Source of the DNA: an uncultured Ferrovum sp.
GTDB taxonomy: Bacteria > Pseudomonadota > Gammaproteobacteria > Burkholderiales > Ferrovaceae
Assembly: GCA_903905585.1 (NCBI GenBank)
Contig: CAIVHB010000059.1
Span: forward strand, 62,001 to 126,000
Length of the DNA stretch: 64,000 bases
Direction of reading: 5' to 3'
A program made the translations under genes and the position numbers. The stretch's first letter is position 1. Every line of letters starts with the position of its first letter. Under the pieces are notes generated by a model. It saw only the letters and a list, made by a program, of their open reading frames with translations. It did no database searches and was not told the DNA's origin. Below are positions 17,324-37,899 of the stretch, in pieces.

Positions 17324-18754
17324 TTAACTAGGAAATTCAGCTAGACCGAAACGATCTGAAGTCCTGGATGGAGCTGAACGAACCTTTGCAACAAGTGGTC
17401 CCACTGCAACCAATAAAGCAAACAATAAAATAATCTCAAGTTGATAAACCATCCCATAGGCAGCAGCTGGAGATTGCAATAAAGGCCCTAGTGCACCGTC
17501 ATGTCCCCAAAGCACAATGAGATCTTTTAAGCCTGCACCCACTGCGATCGCTACACCTGCACATGTCGCCTGAACAGCACCCCATGCACCCAAAGCCAAA
17601 CCGCTAGCGTTTTCATCCCGGAGTTTCATAAATGCGGTCAATGAACCCAAAGAAAACAAACCGCCTCCGAACCCAATACCGATGGCACCCATTCTGAACA
17701 TCAGAGGGGAACCCAATGCACCGGACATCATCACTAAAGCAAAAGCTACTAAGCCACTGAGTGCTCCCGTTGCAGTCAAGCGCCATGGATCGCTTCCGCG
17801 ACCTAAAAGTCGTGCTGCAAAAGTGAACGCAACGAGCGTGCCTGCGGCGGTCATTGCCGTTAATGTGGTTGTGGCTGAAACAGATAGACCTAAAACCTCT
17901 GCGCCATAGGGTTCTAGCAAGATGTCCTGCATACTAAATGCCGAAGCCCCCAGACCCACAGCCCATAAAGCGCGTGTCACCCCGGGTTGACGTCGCCATT
18001 GACGCCAGCTTTCACTGAAATTAGGACGATCGTTGAGATCCTTTCTTTCACTACGCGCTTCTTGCTTCCAAAGGGCGATGCCATTCAATACCAAGGTCAG
18101 CATGGCGCCACCCTGTAAAACTTTGATCAATTTAATAGGTTGATAATCATTCAGCAGAACACCTGAAACTAGACTGGCTGCGACCATTCCCGCTAACAAC
18201 ATCACATAGAGCAAACAAATGACCCGAGGACGTTTTTCTTCAGGGGCAAGATCCGTTGCCAAGGCCAAACCCGCTGTTTGTACGGTATGCATTCCTGCTC
18301 CAATCAACAAAAATGCAAGTGCAGCGCCGGCTTCCGAGATCCAAACGGGGCCATTACTATCTCCGCTCAACAAAATCAGAGCAAACGGCATGATGGATAG
18401 CCCACCAAATTGCAGCAAGGTTCCAAACCAGAGATAAGGTACACGACGCCAGCCTAGGGCGCTGCGATGATGGTCAGACTGATGGCCCAATAGAGCACGA
18501 AATGGAGCAAATAAAAGAGGAAGAGAGACCAGCAATGCCACCATGCTTGCAGAGGTGTGAAGCTCCACAATCATGATGCGGTTCAGCGTGCCATTGAGCA
18601 AAACTAATGAGATGCCTACCGAGACTTGGAACAAAGACAATCTCAGCATCCGAGCCAAACTGAGTTCTTCAGAGGCTGCATCAGCGAAAGGAAGCCAGCG
18701 CGTTCCAATCAAAGACCACATTTGCAAATAGCGCTGACTCATGTTCTTCATCAT
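17324..18754 (-). CDS. lhaA: LhaA/PucC-family light-harvesting assembly protein
   Basis: LhaA belongs to the bacteriochlorophyll-delivery (BCD) branch of the major facilitator superfamily and assists LH1 assembly. The 476-residue protein has about twelve hydrophobic helices. Its N-terminal region LPFADAASEELSLARMLRLS and the GWRRVPYLWFGTLLQFGG segment are nearly repeated in the pucC product at 35700-37100. Position upstream of puhA and downstream of bchM identifies it as lhaA rather than pucC. The start overlaps the bchM stop by 4 bases. Confidence 0.9.
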   Translation of the reverse strand: MMKNMSQRYLQMWSLIGTRWLPFADAASEELSLARMLRLSLFQVSVGISLVLLNGTLNRIMIVELHTSASMVALLVSLPLLFAPFRALLGHQSDHHRSALGWRRVPYLWFGTLLQFGGLSIMPFALILLSGDSNGPVWISEAGAALAFLLIGAGMHTVQTAGLALATDLAPEEKRPRVICLLYVMLLAGMVAASLVSGVLLNDYQPIKLIKVLQGGAMLTLVLNGIALWKQEARSERKDLNDRPNFSESWRQWRRQPGVTRALWAVGLGASAFSMQDILLEPYGAEVLGLSVSATTTLTAMTAAGTLVAFTFAARLLGRGSDPWRLTATGALSGLVAFALVMMSGALGSPLMFRMGAIGIGFGGGLFSLGSLTAFMKLRDENASGLALGAWGAVQATCAGVAIAVGAGLKDLIVLWGHDGALGPLLQSPAAAYGMVYQLEIILLFALLVAVGPLVAKVRSAPSRTSDRFGLAEFPS

Positions 18755-27645: not shown

Positions 27646-27710
27646 AATTTATGCCTGACAAAGTCAGTTGTCAATCTAAATTGACAACAATCAAACGATA
27701 AGTGTCTAAA
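27646..27710. promoter_or_regulatory. Divergent bchF / ppaA promoters sharing one PpsR-type palindrome
   Basis: The 18-base palindrome TGTCAATCTAAATTGACA at 27669-27686 fits the PpsR/CrtJ operator TGT-N12-ACA exactly. Its right half is a perfect -35 box TTGACA (27681-27686) for the plus strand, followed after 18 bases by TCTAAA. Its left half is TTGACA on the minus strand (27674-27669), followed after 17 bases by TAAATT. One operator would therefore cover both -35 boxes, repressing the pigment superoperon and the ppaA-ppsR operon together. The operator match is direct; promoter activity is inferred. Confidence 0.75.
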
Positions 27711-27815: not shown

Positions 27816-27833
27816 TTGTACGGAGGGGTAGTA

Positions 27834-28748
27834 ATGGCTTCTTCAAATGAATCGGATGTCAGCAATACCTTACGTCTAGGAGATACACTCCATGGCGGAA
27901 CGCAGGAACAGATGAGTCATCAGTCGATTTCAGAAAAAAATGACATCGGCGCTCGTGGAGAGACCATCAAAGAGAAAGGCCTCAGAGATACGATCGAAAA
28001 CGAGATTATCCCAAGGCTGGTGCTTGCCCATAACCAGTTAACGCCTCACCGCCGTGGTTTTAATTCCTTAGGTTCTGAACAGCATCATGAAAGCGTATTA
28101 AGGGTTGCAGACTATTCATTAAGTGGAAACCAATCAGCGCTTCGAGAATTGGTGGATCAGCTTCTGAATGTAAGCATCAGTTTAGAGGAATTATTTTTAG
28201 ATATTCTCGCTCCTGCTGCAGCAGTATTAGGGGAGAAATGGGATAAAGACGATGTCGATTTTATAGAGGTTTCACTGGCAGTAGGCACCTTGCAATCTCT
28301 ACTTCATGAGTTATCGGATAAATATCAGCATGAGGCAGCCAGTTTTGCATCAGATCGTAGAGTCTTAATTATAAGTACCCCGGGAGAACAACATACCTTT
28401 GGGGTGTCAATGGTCGCCGAAGTTTTTCGGCGCAGGGGATGGTATGTCGATTCTAGTCCCATCTCGAACCTTGAAGCTTTAGTGCAGCATGTGCAAAGCG
28501 AATGGTTTGATGTGGCCGGTTTATCACTCAGTGCTGAATCCTCTCTTCCAAGTTTGGTGGAAGGGATCCGGCAAATACGACGGGCATCACGCAATCAACG
28601 CATTGGAATTTTGGTTGGCGGCCCGGCTTTTAATTTACACCCTGATTGGCTGACTAAAGTAGGCGCTGATGCGCTCGGTCATGACGCGATCCAAGCCGAA
28701 GAACAAGCGCATCGGTTAATTGGATTGCTTGTCCAGGGTCCCGGCTAA
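27834..28748 (+). CDS. ppaA: PpaA/AerR, B12-binding antirepressor of PpsR
   Basis: PpaA/AerR uses cobalamin to sense light or redox state and counteracts the repressor PpsR/CrtJ. I choose the ATG at 27834, 5 bases after a strong GGAGGGG, giving 304 residues; an in-frame ATG 18 bases earlier is less likely. The N-terminal half is polar and charged. A helical region (about 90-165) precedes a B12-binding-like Rossmann domain with PGEQHTFGVSMVAEVFRRRG, where His187 is a candidate cobalamin ligand, and GILVGGPAFNLHP later. It lies 37 bases upstream of ppsR. Confidence 0.88.
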   Translation: MASSNESDVSNTLRLGDTLHGGTQEQMSHQSISEKNDIGARGETIKEKGLRDTIENEIIPRLVLAHNQLTPHRRGFNSLGSEQHHESVLRVADYSLSGNQSALRELVDQLLNVSISLEELFLDILAPAAAVLGEKWDKDDVDFIEVSLAVGTLQSLLHELSDKYQHEAASFASDRRVLIISTPGEQHTFGVSMVAEVFRRRGWYVDSSPISNLEALVQHVQSEWFDVAGLSLSAESSLPSLVEGIRQIRRASRNQRIGILVGGPAFNLHPDWLTKVGADALGHDAIQAEEQAHRLIGLLVQGPG

Positions 28749-31176: not shown

Positions 31177-32541
31177 ATGAAAAATTTGGGATGGATTGGA
31201 ATAGCAAGACTGGGGCTTATTCAAGCCTCATTGGGTGCTGTGGTGGTCATGGCAACTGGAACACTGAATAGGGTGATGGTGGTTGAAATAGGTCTTCCTG
31301 CCCTTATTCCTGGCATTCTTGTAGCCTGGCATTATTTGATTCAAATTGTAAGACCACGATTAGGCCATGGCTCCGATCAAGGTGGGCGTCGCACACCTTG
31401 GATTATTGCCGGAATAGCGATGTTGGGCTTAGGTGCCGTGGGAGCAGCCGTTGCCACCTCAATGATGGCGAGCCAACCCACCTTAGGGATTCTCTTTGCG
31501 TGGATTGACTATAGCCTGATTGGTATTGGAGGGGGATGTGCAGGCACTTCTCTTCTTGTTTTATTGGCGCAACGTACTGCCCCTGAACGTCGCCCCGCAG
31601 CAGCAACTTTAGTATGGATCATGATGATCGCCGGTTTTGTCATCACCGCAGGATTGGCTGGACGGGTCATTGATCCTTATAGCCCCGAAAGACTCATCGC
31701 TGTCGTCACCACAGTAGCAGCCATAGCCTTGATCATCAGCACTTTGGCAGTATGGGGAATGGAAGGAAAAGATAGTATCGAATCGCTACCTTCTCAATCA
31801 AAAACTGAAAACTCAAATTCGCATCAAACAGATTTTATGACTGCGGTTCGTGAAGTATGGTCGGAGCCACAGGCACGTCTTTTTGCCGGGTTTGTATTCA
31901 TCGCCATGCTAGCCTATAGCGCACAAGAACTTCTGATCGACCCTTTTGCTGGAAAGGTTTATGGCTATTCGCCTGGCGAATCCACTCAGTTAAATGGCAT
32001 TCAACATGGTGGGGCATTAGTTGGAATGGTGCTCGTAGCCTTGCTTGGCACTTTACGTAAAGGTAAAGACCTAGGCTCTCCTCGATTCTGCACCCAATTC
32101 GGATGTATCAGTTCCGCATTTATGCTCATCATCATTGCCTCATCTGCAGCCGGTCATTTGGGCTGGCCGCTCAAAGAAATGGTCTTTGCTTTAGGCGTGG
32201 CGAATGGTCTTTTCGCAGTCTCAGCAATTGCCGCCATGATGCAAATGGTGGGGCAAGGCACCCAACAACGCGAGGGGGTAAGAATGGGAATTTGGGGGGC
32301 AGCCCAAGCCGTTGCATTTGCCATGGGTGGACTGGTGGGAACCGGTCTTTCTGACTTGGCGCGTGCGCTTTTAGAAGATGCTGGGCTTGCCTACGCCCTT
32401 GTGTTTTGTATCCAAGCATTATTCTTTATTACAGCAGCCTATCTCGCGAAAAATTTGTTTTCACTTGCCTCAAGCTCAAGTAGTCGTCGCAGCATCACAC
32501 AGAAACAAGAAGATCTGGTGTCTTTAGCACAAGAAGCTTAA
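31177..32541 (+). CDS. PucC-family (BCD) MFS protein between bchG and bchP
   Basis: A 454-residue, twelve-helix member of the bacteriochlorophyll-delivery MFS family, distinct from LhaA and PucC in this window. It starts directly in the first membrane helix (GWIGIARLGLIQASLGAVVV) and has GTLNRVMVVEIGLPALIPG, RPRLGHGSDQGGRRTPWI and GIGGGCAGTSLLVLLAQR. Genes of this type commonly sit between bchG and bchP in purple bacteria (the ORF428/bch2 position). A role in pigment handling is inferred from family and place; it has not been deduced from any catalytic residue. Confidence 0.85.
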   Translation: MKNLGWIGIARLGLIQASLGAVVVMATGTLNRVMVVEIGLPALIPGILVAWHYLIQIVRPRLGHGSDQGGRRTPWIIAGIAMLGLGAVGAAVATSMMASQPTLGILFAWIDYSLIGIGGGCAGTSLLVLLAQRTAPERRPAAATLVWIMMIAGFVITAGLAGRVIDPYSPERLIAVVTTVAAIALIISTLAVWGMEGKDSIESLPSQSKTENSNSHQTDFMTAVREVWSEPQARLFAGFVFIAMLAYSAQELLIDPFAGKVYGYSPGESTQLNGIQHGGALVGMVLVALLGTLRKGKDLGSPRFCTQFGCISSAFMLIIIASSAAGHLGWPLKEMVFALGVANGLFAVSAIAAMMQMVGQGTQQREGVRMGIWGAAQAVAFAMGGLVGTGLSDLARALLEDAGLAYALVFCIQALFFITAAYLAKNLFSLASSSSSRRSITQKQEDLVSLAQEA

Positions 32542-34437: not shown

Positions 34438-34662
34438 TTAACGGCGAATAACGTTAGCCACAATATTCCAACGCATTGAAGTAGCCAGCGCTGCGCCTGC
34501 AATGAAGGCCAAAAGGGCGGTAATCAATGCAGATTGAGGGGTACCGTCTGGGTTGGTTAGGTAGAGCTTTCCAACAAATAACACTGAAGTCACCATCAAC
34601 ACAGCACTTGCTTTTGCTCCATTTCGGCGAGCGATTTCTTTGATGAGTTTATTGTAATCCAT
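34438..34662 (-). CDS. Small membrane protein, paralogue 1 (74 residues, unknown)
   Basis: A 74-residue protein with two predicted membrane helices (about 18-34 and 45-60). It is clearly related to the next gene upstream: both share IA-[RK][RK]-N near the start, DG[TS]xQSA in the connecting loop, then ALAF[IV]xGxALA[ST]S[ML]RW and a C-terminal RR. It has no cysteine and no recognisable family. An AAGAGAT segment lies 4 bases before the ATG. It is 12 bases downstream of its paralogue and looks co-transcribed with it, between tspO and pucBA. Confidence 0.75.
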   Translation of the reverse strand: MDYNKLIKEIARRNGAKASAVLMVTSVLFVGKLYLTNPDGTPQSALITALLAFIAGAALATSMRWNIVANVIRR

Positions 34663-34674
34663 AGTGATCTCTTC

Positions 34675-34899
34675 TTAGTTTGATGTTGAACGACGATAGT
34701 ATCGGGTGGCGCGATCCCAGCGCAGCGAGCTCGCTAAAGCAATCCCAACAACAAAAGCTAAAGCGGCTGTTGGCATGGCTGACTGAACAGATCCATCGAA
34801 ATGCGTGGTCGCCAAATTTAAAAGCAACACAAATGCGGAGAGAATCAGTGTGGTAAGCGCAAATCCACTATTCTTTTTTGCAATATCTATTTTCATCAT
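34675..34899 (-). CDS. Small membrane protein, paralogue 2 (74 residues, unknown)
   Basis: A 74-residue relative of the neighbouring gene, with two predicted membrane helices (about 11-31 and 43-60) and the shared features DGSVQSAMPTAALAFVVG, ALASSLRW and a C-terminal YYRR. The gene starts at one of two adjacent ATGs and is divergent from pucBA, so the 338-base spacer carries the control sites of both. A tandem pair that arose by duplication and is kept inside the pigment gene cluster suggests a role with photosynthetic membranes or pigments, but the sequence gives no biochemical hint. Confidence 0.75.
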   Translation of the reverse strand: MMKIDIAKKNSGFALTTLILSAFVLLLNLATTHFDGSVQSAMPTAALAFVVGIALASSLRWDRATRYYRRSTSN

Positions 34900-35237
34900 T
34901 AGGTGTCCGTCAATAGAGTTTAAGGAGGACTTGTATCGTATTTTTTGTCCACGACAAAGTTAGTGTAGATCAAGTTTTGCTATTTGTGTTCAGTTTTTAT
35001 CAAAAATAATCATATGTATGAGTGTGTTGCAAAAAAAAACATTTTGTCTTTGACATATTGCTTACTGTCCTGTTTAATTGACACGTCTTAATGTATCATC
35101 GCACTTACGGTTATGGTGAAAATTTATAACTGTTTGATGTTGCATTTCGAATTCGTGGTCTGTTCCGCCATGAGTAAGCCCTAGTGCCGGGTTGGCACGA
35201 TAGAAGTAAAAGTTCGTCGATGAGGGAGGATTTAGTT
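34900..35237. promoter_or_regulatory. Regulatory spacer between the small membrane genes and pucBA
   Basis: This 338-base AT-rich stretch holds no gene that I can support. It contains two short palindromes of the form TGTC-N3-GACA: TGTCCACGACA at 34946-34956 (part of TTTGTC-CAC-GACAAA) and TGTCTTTGACA at 35045-35055. The second covers the -35 box of the predicted puc promoter. Downstream lies an A-rich tract, a PpsR-type operator, and a leader of about 150 bases before pucB with a small GTGCC/GGCAC stem near 35190. The ribosome site GGGAGGA is at 35224-35230. Confidence 0.6.
35050..35083 (+). promoter_or_regulatory. puc promoter with overlapping PpsR operator
   Basis: A perfect -35 TTGACA at 35050-35055 is followed, after 17 bases, by the -10-like TTTAAT at 35073-35078. 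The sequence TGTCCTGTTTAATTGACA at 35066-35083 matches TGT-N12-ACA and covers the -10 box. PpsR bound here would block RNA polymerase, which fits known repression of puc operons by PpsR/CrtJ under air. The motif match is direct; function is inferred. Confidence 0.72.
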
Positions 35238-35406: not shown

Positions 35407-35634
35407 ATGATATATGGCCGTATGTGGCTGGTCATTAAGCCCGGCATTGGTATTCCCATGGGTGCAGTAGCAATTATGGGCACTTCGCTTGCCGTCCATA
35501 CCTGCATCTTGACTCACACCACGTGGTTTCCCGCGTTTCTCCAAGGCGGCGTTAAAGCGCAGCACGCAGCTGTGGAGACAGGCAAAGTTGCAGCAGCACC
35601 GCAACCGCCCATTGCAGTGGCATCGGCAAAGTAA
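35407..35634 (+). CDS. pucA: Peripheral light-harvesting alpha subunit PucA, B800-820 (LH3) type
   Basis: PucA is the alpha apoprotein of the LH2/LH3 antenna. The 75-residue protein aligns without gaps to Rhodoblastus acidophilus LH2 alpha: Trp7, Pro12, Gly15-Ile-Pro17, the bacteriochlorophyll ligand His31, and HTTWFPA at 37-43. Positions 44-45 read Phe-Leu instead of Tyr-Trp, removing both hydrogen bonds to the acetyl groups of the ring bacteriochlorophylls. Phe44-Leu45 is the signature of blue-shifted B800-820 complexes. Cys33 within the helix is unusual. The tail (about 50-75) is Ala/Pro-rich, as in other betaproteobacterial alpha subunits. Confidence 0.95.
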
Positions 35635-35699: not shown

Positions 35700-37100
35700 T
35701 TAGGCTTTATGGCGCGGAATAAGCGGCATCATGGCACCTAAGGCAATAATCAGCAGAGCAATTTCAATACAATACACCGTGACGTAGCCTAATGCCGAGG
35801 AAGTAAACAGGCTAGAGGTATCGAATACCTGTTGCGCAGAATAATTCGCGACCACATCTCTAATCACTCCACTCAACGCAACAGCCACACCCGCAGCGGA
35901 GGCTTGGGCCGCCCCCCAAGCACCCAAAGCCAGTCCACGTTGTTCTGCTGGGGCTTGGTTCATGGTGGCGGTGAGGGTTCCGTGCCCAAACAAACCTGCT
36001 CCAAATCCAATCAGGAAGGTACCCAATCCAAAGAAAAGAATCGAATGCATTGGGCCTGCAAAAATAACCAATAAAAAAGCGGGGATGCCGGTTAAAGCGC
36101 CTAAAGCAGCCATTTTGAAAGGATCATAACCACGGCTTAGCATTCGGGAGGCCAGCGCAAAACCAAAAAGCCCCCCCGCAGCTAAGGTGGCAGTCAGGCG
36201 CGTGGTCATATCTACGGTCAGATGCAATACCTGCCCCCCATAGGGCTCTAAGATCACATCTTCCATACTGAATGCCATTGTTCCCAGTGCAACCGCCAGC
36301 AACCTTCTGACCGCCTGATTACCCTGACTGTAACTTTGCCAGGCTTGCATAAAACGCGGCGTTACCGCATGCGGAGTCGTGTTTGCGCGATTGCGGCCCT
36401 CTTGTTTCCAAAGTGCAATAACATTCAAGGCTACCGTCAAGAGCGCAGCGGATTGGATGACTTGCACCAAGCGCATTGAGTTGAAGTTCACCAGGAGTGC
36501 TCCGAAAATAAAAGCACTCACAATCATCCCAAATAGCAACATGACATACATCAGTCCCACTACCTTTGGCTGGGCCTCTGGTTTAGCCTGATCAGTGGCG
36601 AGCGCCAACCCCACTGTCTGAACGGTATGGAGCCCTGCCCCGACAAGCAGAAACGCCAGACCCGCACCTAACTGCCCAGCCCAAACAGGCGCTTTACTGG
36701 CCTCTCCTGCTCCGGCCAATACCAGCAAGGCAAAGGGCATGATACTCAGTCCACCAAACTGCAGCATCGTACCCATCCAAATATAGGGCACCCGCTTCCA
36801 TCCAAGTTGGGAACGATGATTGTCTGAACGAAAACCAATAATGGCTCGAAATGGGGCAAACAGTAGGGGCAGTGAGATCATGATCCCAACAATAGATGCG
36901 GGGACTTCCATCTCAACAATCATGACTCGATTGAGCGTACCAATAAGCAAAGTCAGCGCCATTCCAACAGTGACTTGAAATAGGGAAAGGCGCAACAATC
37001 GGCTCAGAGGTAAATCTTCTGAGGCCGCATCTGCAAAGGGAAGGAATCGAGTGCCTAAAGTGGCAATTTTCCGAGTGATGGATTGTTTTATTTTACGCAT
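35700..37100 (-). CDS. pucC: PucC-type light-harvesting complex assembly protein
   Basis: PucC is a BCD-family MFS membrane protein needed for stable LH2 assembly. From the ATG at 37100 it has 466 residues and about twelve helices, with LPFADAASEDLPLSRLLRLS, GTLNRVMIVEMEVPASIVG and GWKRVPYIWMGTMLQFGG. It is a close paralogue of LhaA at 17324-18754. The start lies 10 bases beyond the stop of the DUF2063 gene with no evident ribosome site, so translation is probably coupled. An alternative ATG at 37127 overlaps that gene. It is convergent with pucBA, not downstream of it. Confidence 0.92.
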   Translation of the reverse strand: MRKIKQSITRKIATLGTRFLPFADAASEDLPLSRLLRLSLFQVTVGMALTLLIGTLNRVMIVEMEVPASIVGIMISLPLLFAPFRAIIGFRSDNHRSQLGWKRVPYIWMGTMLQFGGLSIMPFALLVLAGAGEASKAPVWAGQLGAGLAFLLVGAGLHTVQTVGLALATDQAKPEAQPKVVGLMYVMLLFGMIVSAFIFGALLVNFNSMRLVQVIQSAALLTVALNVIALWKQEGRNRANTTPHAVTPRFMQAWQSYSQGNQAVRRLLAVALGTMAFSMEDVILEPYGGQVLHLTVDMTTRLTATLAAGGLFGFALASRMLSRGYDPFKMAALGALTGIPAFLLVIFAGPMHSILFFGLGTFLIGFGAGLFGHGTLTATMNQAPAEQRGLALGAWGAAQASAAGVAVALSGVIRDVVANYSAQQVFDTSSLFTSSALGYVTVYCIEIALLIIALGAMMPLIPRHKA

Positions 37101-37110
37101 CCGAACTATA

Positions 37111-37899
37111 TTACTTAAGCCCACCATTTTGTAAATAACCGATGAAGGCACCATTACTGAATAAATCACCCATGAGCAAGATAAAATCAAAGTTTGCATC
37201 CTCACGATTCGCTATCTTTAGGGCCTCCTCCAGAGAATGACTGCTCATTAGCGCTTGAATAAAGATGCGTTCCCCAGTTTGAAGAGATTTCACAACAACA
37301 TTCAAATCGTATCTAAGAATGAGTGCGATCTCAGCTTGATAAGGGTTTACCTTGGCCAGTGCTTGGGCAATTTCAAGTTCTGATTCATGCTGATGCGCTA
37401 ACCATAGTGAGGCAATCGCATATTGAGAATCAATGAGAGAAACTGAAGGATGAAATTGCCAGCGACTTGCGGCCAACGCTTCGGGGCTCGCAAGAAGCGT
37501 GTTGACTGCCTCTAGGTTCATAGTTGAACGATCTGCAACCTCTCCGGCAACCCTACACTGCCATTCAAGACGCGCCATGTCTGCAAGATAAGGAACCGAT
37601 TCTGCCGGTGCAAACTTTAAAATGAATTGAGCAAACTGATCACCATACGCATTCATCACAGGTGAACGGGGGGGGTTGGCTAAAGCAAACGCTTTGGCCA
37701 TCGCGCGGAAAAAATCCTCTCCGACCAAAGTTGTAACAACGGGATAATTGTTCTGCAGCACTTTGATCAAAGATACCATCACGTTATTCCGATACACGTC
37801 AAAACGCGCGTTGGTATCGGATCCGATTATGGATGTAATGCCCTCTGGCAAAGCGCTAGAAGCATCTAACAAAGCAGTTGAAAAGTGGTGAGATTTCAT
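37111..37899 (-). CDS. DUF2063 (BufC-like) partner protein of the MNIO enzyme
   Basis: A 262-residue protein matching the DUF2063 putative DNA-binding/partner family: [23 protein letters not shown] near the N-terminus, [13 protein letters not shown], and [11 protein letters not shown] in the middle. Such proteins are encoded next to DUF692 (MNIO) enzymes and are thought to recruit their precursor peptide. The start ATG at 37899 overlaps the DUF692 stop as ATGA; a longer frame to 37923 overlaps that gene further and is less likely. The substrate peptide was not found nearby. Confidence 0.85.

Follow-up and report, generated by a model that had tools for sequence, protein, structure and literature searches.

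The locus considered here raises a simple question: does a light-harvesting antenna whose alpha chain carries Phe44-Leu45, the combination engineered or found in complexes that absorb well below 850 nm, also absorb to the blue, and do these residues mark a special event in their host? Our reading, to which we give a probability of about 0.8, is that PucBA is a blue-shifted peripheral antenna of the LH2 family with a band at ~813–826 nm, and that Phe44-Leu45 is an inherited, usual state. The genes lie in a 64,000-nucleotide stretch of DNA, which we call the window, from a lake bacterium, an uncultured Ferrovum sp.

The two antenna genes form a pair that lies apart from the pufLM core genes, with a convergent pucC nearby whose true start is probably inside the listed open reading frame (Table 1). 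pucA starts with ATG, preceded by AGGAGG ~10 bases 5' of the gene, and its product matches the Pfam LHC family (PF00556; 28.4 bits versus a cut-off of 23) and ends in a tail rich in Ala and Pro. The spacer between pucB and pucA is 13 bases, and the genes are therefore presumably co-transcribed. PucB contains the pigment-ligand His40, ends in TPWLH, and retains the B800-site residues His22 and Arg30, which correspond to His12 and Arg20 in Rhodoblastus acidophilus numbering. It aligns without gaps to solved LH2 beta chains, and its best relatives among them are beta chains of Rhodopseudomonas palustris (7zdi_B, 4e-28 by phmmer).

Table 1 Features of the antenna locus and its surroundings (window positions).
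Feature	Position	Strand	Basis or remark
PucC/LhaA-type family member	17324..18754		PF03209
Second PpsR-like palindrome	27669..27686		In gap before ppaA-like gene
PpaA/AerR-like B12-binding regulator (putative)	27816..28748	+	Adjoins PpsR-like gene; named by likeness
PpsR/CrtJ-like regulator (putative), PAS domains and Fis-type helix-turn-helix	28786..30228	+	Named from domains and location
PucC/LhaA-type family member	31177..32541		PF03209
Hydrophobic 74-aa protein	34438..34662	-	Paralogue of next entry
Hydrophobic 74-aa protein	34675..34899	-	Paralogue of previous entry
PpsR/CrtJ-like palindrome (putative), TGTCCTGTTTAATTGACA	35066..35083	+	172 bases upstream of pucB
pucB, beta subunit, 51 aa	35238..35393	+	ORF, Pfam, phmmer
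pucA, LH2-type peripheral antenna alpha, 75 aa	35407..35634	+	ORF, Pfam, phmmer, sister orthologue
PucC-type assembly factor/transporter	35700..37205	-	PF03209, E=2e-147

Several features surround the pair. Control of puc by light and oxygen through PpsR is likely, judging from the position of the palindrome upstream of pucB and from its conservation, as all 18 of its bases are identical in a sister genome in which the surrounding region is 83% identical. By count, such sites are not significantly enriched in the window, either as TGTN12ACA (9 found, 13 expected) or as TGTCN10GACA (2 found, 0.8 expected). The PucC/LhaA-type family is represented three times within one photosynthesis gene cluster. 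Between tspO and pucBA lie two adjoining hydrophobic paralogues, 39% identical over the matched part, whose position is kept in the sister genome. They have no matches in Pfam or NCBIfam, and a survey of 300 genomes of the order gave almost no relatives (two matches, both near E=1e-3). The two paralogues may be small membrane proteins associated with the antenna.

Numbered from Met1, PucA contains Trp7, Ser27, His31, Cys33, the stretch H37-T-T-W-F-P-A43 (with Phe at 41), Phe44 and Leu45, and thus has a complete antenna-alpha frame comprising the ligand His31 and Trp7/Trp40. In phmmer searches, it aligns without gaps both to the LH2 alpha of 1kzu (...HTTWFPAYWQGG) and to the LH3 alpha of 1ijd (...HTTWYAAFLQGG). 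Its best match among solved structures is the latter, the R. acidophilus B800-820 alpha chain (4.5e-14), followed by 9dwz (B800-820), an antenna chain of 8z81 and 1kzu (B800-850), again in gap-free alignments. An earlier sequence-only reading of this DNA had described the same gap-free fit to R. acidophilus, with Trp7, His31, HTTWFPA and Phe44-Leu45, and the open reading frame and phmmer agree with it. That reading also singled out Cys33 as an oddity. The residue is indeed present and rare, occurring in 2 of 79 distinct alphas (all loci together, including the best 80 collection loci), both from Ferrovaceae, but we found no link between it and spectral tuning.

In LH2, Tyr44 and Trp/Tyr45 hold the C3-acetyl groups of the coupled bacteriochlorophyll pair, and nine structures relate the number of C3 hydrogen bonds to the band, with two bonds giving ~850 nm, one ~825 nm and none ~800 nm (PMC9618040). 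In Rhodobacter sphaeroides, the Y44F variant absorbs at 839 nm and Y44F/Y45L at 826 nm, the double mutant retaining the bond from Ser27 to the other carbonyl (PMC9618040). Changes in site energy and in excitonic interaction both contribute to such blue shifts (PMC11440610). The window PucA has no hydrogen-bond donor at positions 44 and 45, and Phe41 provides none either. We propose that pucBA encodes the alpha and beta subunits of a ring-shaped LH2-family antenna that would feed an LH1–reaction-centre core encoded elsewhere in the genome, with each alpha-beta unit binding one B800 pigment and a strongly coupled bacteriochlorophyll pair. Because residues 41, 44 and 45 offer no donor, the C3-acetyls would be free to rotate out of plane, which would raise the site energy, weaken exciton coupling and move the band from ~850 nm to ~813–826 nm. 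The retained Ser27 may still hold the beta-side pigment via its C13 carbonyl. A band at ~813–826 nm is thus a well-supported prediction from the residues. The B820-type shift proposed in the sequence-only reading survives in this form, with both donors lost in the sole peripheral pair found, although its analogy with LH3 proves inexact. We therefore file the gene as an LH2-type pucA whose product should work like an LH3.

There is a real, if small, chance that the complex is instead LH4-like (B800 only), with the coupled pair absorbing near 800–805 nm and merged with B800. R. palustris PucD-LH2, which carries Phe44-Met45 and makes no hydrogen bond to the pair, absorbs at 803 nm (PMC9618040), and the predicted band might therefore fall below 813 nm. 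The window alpha likewise has no donor at 41, 44 or 45, and the R. palustris chains are the nearest solved relatives of its beta subunit. By contrast, the window has Ser27 in place of the Val27 of PucD (7ze3), the R. sphaeroides double mutant remains at 826 nm with Ser27 and Leu41, and the Phe-Phe antenna of Rhodoferax antarcticus absorbs at 819 nm.

How unusual are the two residues? Of 399 genomes drawn evenly from the order, 30 had an alpha match, and Phe44-Leu45 occurs in 18 of the 23 distinct readable alphas, the window's own excluded. When all loci are taken together, including the best 80 collection loci, the share is 60 of 79 distinct alphas, a figure that may be inflated because the ranking of these 80 went by their overall similarity to a Phe-Leu query; the even draw is cleaner but smaller. 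The collection scan used an N-terminal pattern (M[IN][YN]G[KR][MI]W[LC]), so positions 44 and 45 were not directly selected on. Each of the other combinations (Tyr-Leu, Tyr-His, Phe-Met, Phe-Ile, Phe-Tyr, Tyr-Phe and Tyr-Trp) is seen once or a few times. In the same 79 alphas, Ser27 is present in 75 and Tyr41 in one. The order-wide survey rules out rarity of Phe44-Leu45, and the earlier view of the pair as unusual gives way to its being the majority state in Burkholderiales PucA. In a tree of 87 alignment columns, in which many forks are open, Phe-Leu is spread through the group and Tyr-Tyr is limited to one Rubrivivax-type clade. The two Ferrovaceae sequences sit where Phe-Leu is the background state, on a long branch outside the main Burkholderiales cluster, and with so few columns their exact origin is open. 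Their beta chains have Arg rather than Gln at a B800-contacting position, like alphaproteobacterial references, and relatives among the alphaproteobacteria are suggested by a published PufL tree as well (PMC13390463). Across 81 distinct pairs (loci L015–L124), this position is Gln in 67, mostly from Burkholderiales, and Arg in 14; Gln for Arg may alter the B800 band in the Burkholderiales group.

Judged from these sequences, the ‘mutant-like’ Phe44-Leu45 is the default of the antenna group and not a special adaptation of this host. A state this common is no sign of a special event, and it carries little information on low light. Conservation is also evident at close range. In a sister genome (‘uncultured Ferrovum sp. 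isolate Ki1-0-7m_bin-0142’; G003, locus L045), puc gene order and residues 41–46 are identical, and codon 45 is CTT in one genome and CTC in the other, encoding Leu in both. The pucA genes differ at 25 codons, 17 of them synonymously, and only one of the eight amino-acid changes falls within residues 1–48; the nine codon differences in pucB are all synonymous. This bias toward synonymous change points to selection that keeps both proteins, Phe44-Leu45 included, which would then not be there by chance.

Could the blue shift nevertheless be a recent adaptation of the host to low light or coloured water? We consider this doubtful, and less probable than an LH4-like complex. Species that have both antenna forms do raise LH3 in low light or cold (PMC5374385), and phototrophic Ferrovaceae inhabit iron-rich high-latitude lakes (PMC13390463). 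Against this idea, Phe44-Leu45 predominates across Burkholderiales, and a single peripheral pair leaves no LH2/LH3 switch. The suggestion that the antenna suits low light is further weakened by reports of related phototrophic Ferrovaceae from oxygenated lake water at 0–0.7 m (PMC13390463); the isolate name of the closest sister reads 0-7m, which we take as 0.7 m.

As the sequence-only reading stated, pucBA is the only antenna in the window, but the genome has a core LH1 pufBA on another contig (C44). The gene order there is bchX-bchY-bchZ-pufB-pufA-pufL, so that the core LH1 genes are followed by the first reaction-centre gene. The bch names on this contig rest on sequence reading and gene order rather than on a family search. 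pufL is divided between the end of this contig and contig C167 of the same genome (G000), and the puf operon therefore looks like a single locus broken by assembly. A search for further pucBA copies with Tyr-Trp, as the sequence-only reading had proposed, returned none; at E<=10, neither a second peripheral pair nor a second puc alpha was found in this genome, which is rated 99.5% complete. Restoration of the lost hydrogen bonds by other residues or by an unseen chain, which would return the band to near 850 nm, is accordingly very improbable: Marichromatium purpuratum bonds one pigment via a beta Trp (PMC9618040), so residues 44 and 45 do not decide everything, but the window beta has the same end as that of R. 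acidophilus and no extension to carry a further donor, and no second puc alpha was found in the genome.

A family search found antenna genes in one of eight genera, and the named sister places this genus in Ferrovaceae. Of its five genomes, two small ones (2.2–2.3 Mb) carry the puc pair together with LH1, and two of 3.3 Mb have LH1 alone; the fifth, of 3.4 Mb, has RuBisCO but no photosystem genes, whether for antennas or for the reaction centre. Phototrophy would thus appear to have been gained or lost within one genus. ‘Candidatus Solisferrum’, a Ferrovaceae genus described in June 2026 from high-latitude stratified lakes, has pufLM and bch genes, and the Calvin cycle was not found in it (PMC13390463). 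The text of that paper nowhere mentions light-harvesting genes (PMC13390463). We found no RuBisCO in the window's genome, which appears to belong to ‘Ca. Solisferrum’, given the restriction of antenna genes to one genus, the sister within Ferrovaceae and this absence of RuBisCO.

More broadly, the value of the locus is comparative, in that Phe44-Leu45 is the norm in Burkholderiales. It is possible, although we lean against it, that a mostly freshwater betaproteobacterial antenna lineage is blue-shifted by default, and that a conserved Ser27 makes up for the two lost acetyl bonds with a bond of its own and keeps the band at 813–826 nm rather than 803 nm. If so, blue-shifted antennas would be the rule and 850-nm antennas the exception in this betaproteobacterial group. 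An assessment of the Ser27 bond may, it has been suggested, require a triple mutant (PMC9618040). Two close relatives in one genus, both with Phe41-Phe44-Leu45, carry Ser27 (L017) and Ala27 (L018), and Roseococcus sp. SDR (L055) also combines Ala27 with Phe41-Phe44-Leu45. Compared with L017, L018 and L055 are natural versions of that triple mutant and make the published question about the Ser27 bond testable.

Among known systems, the LH3 of R. acidophilus strain 7050 (B800-820, 1ijd) shares with the window a gap-free alpha, Phe44-Leu45, His31 and HTTW, but has Tyr41 and Ala27 where the window has Phe41 and Ser27. Tyr41 makes the one hydrogen bond left in 7050 LH3 (PMC9618040), and this bond to the alpha-side pigment has no counterpart in the window PucA. 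LH3 otherwise takes its name from its spectrum, so the missing Tyr41 narrows the analogy with strain 7050. Moreover, R. acidophilus produces LH2 as well and can switch between the two, whereas the window's genome has one peripheral pair. Given Phe41 and Ser27, the better model is R. sphaeroides alpha-Y44F/Y45L (B800-826), which has Phe44, Leu45, Ser27 and no donor at 41, although it is engineered, has Leu41 and differs in the rest of the chain. R. palustris PucD-LH2 (LH4 type, 803 nm, 7ze3) resembles the window in its very similar beta and in offering no donor at 44-45 but differs in having Phe44-Met45 and Val27. Burkholderiales PucA proteins (from Polynucleobacter, Ramlibacter, Hylemonella and others) share Phe44-Leu45 and, in most cases, Ser27, but Val41 is commoner than Phe41 in them and their beta chains mostly have Gln at the B800-contacting position. 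Among the results listed by a literature search, none offered a usable spectrum of a Polynucleobacter or Rhodocyclus relative.

Blue-shifted antennas are known by spectrum from Limnohabitans planktonicus (799/813 nm) and Pseudohaliea rubra (804/821 nm) (PMC12654162, PMC3679898). We dropped the L. planktonicus spectrum as a direct match, as the one locus titled Limnohabitans (L104) has Tyr44-Leu45. R. antarcticus, published in 2017, combines LH1 with a single puc pair, which absorbs at 819 nm; its authors noted that LH3 without LH2, if true, would set it apart from all other purple bacteria (PMC5374385). Like the window's host, it is a betaproteobacterium whose only puc pair is without both donors, but it belongs to another family and has Phe44-Phe45 as reported (PMC5374385). 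With these precedents, neither Phe44-Leu45 nor an LH3-only organism is new. The window antenna would be one more of the blue-shifted type, carried by a phototrophic genus within a family of iron oxidisers.
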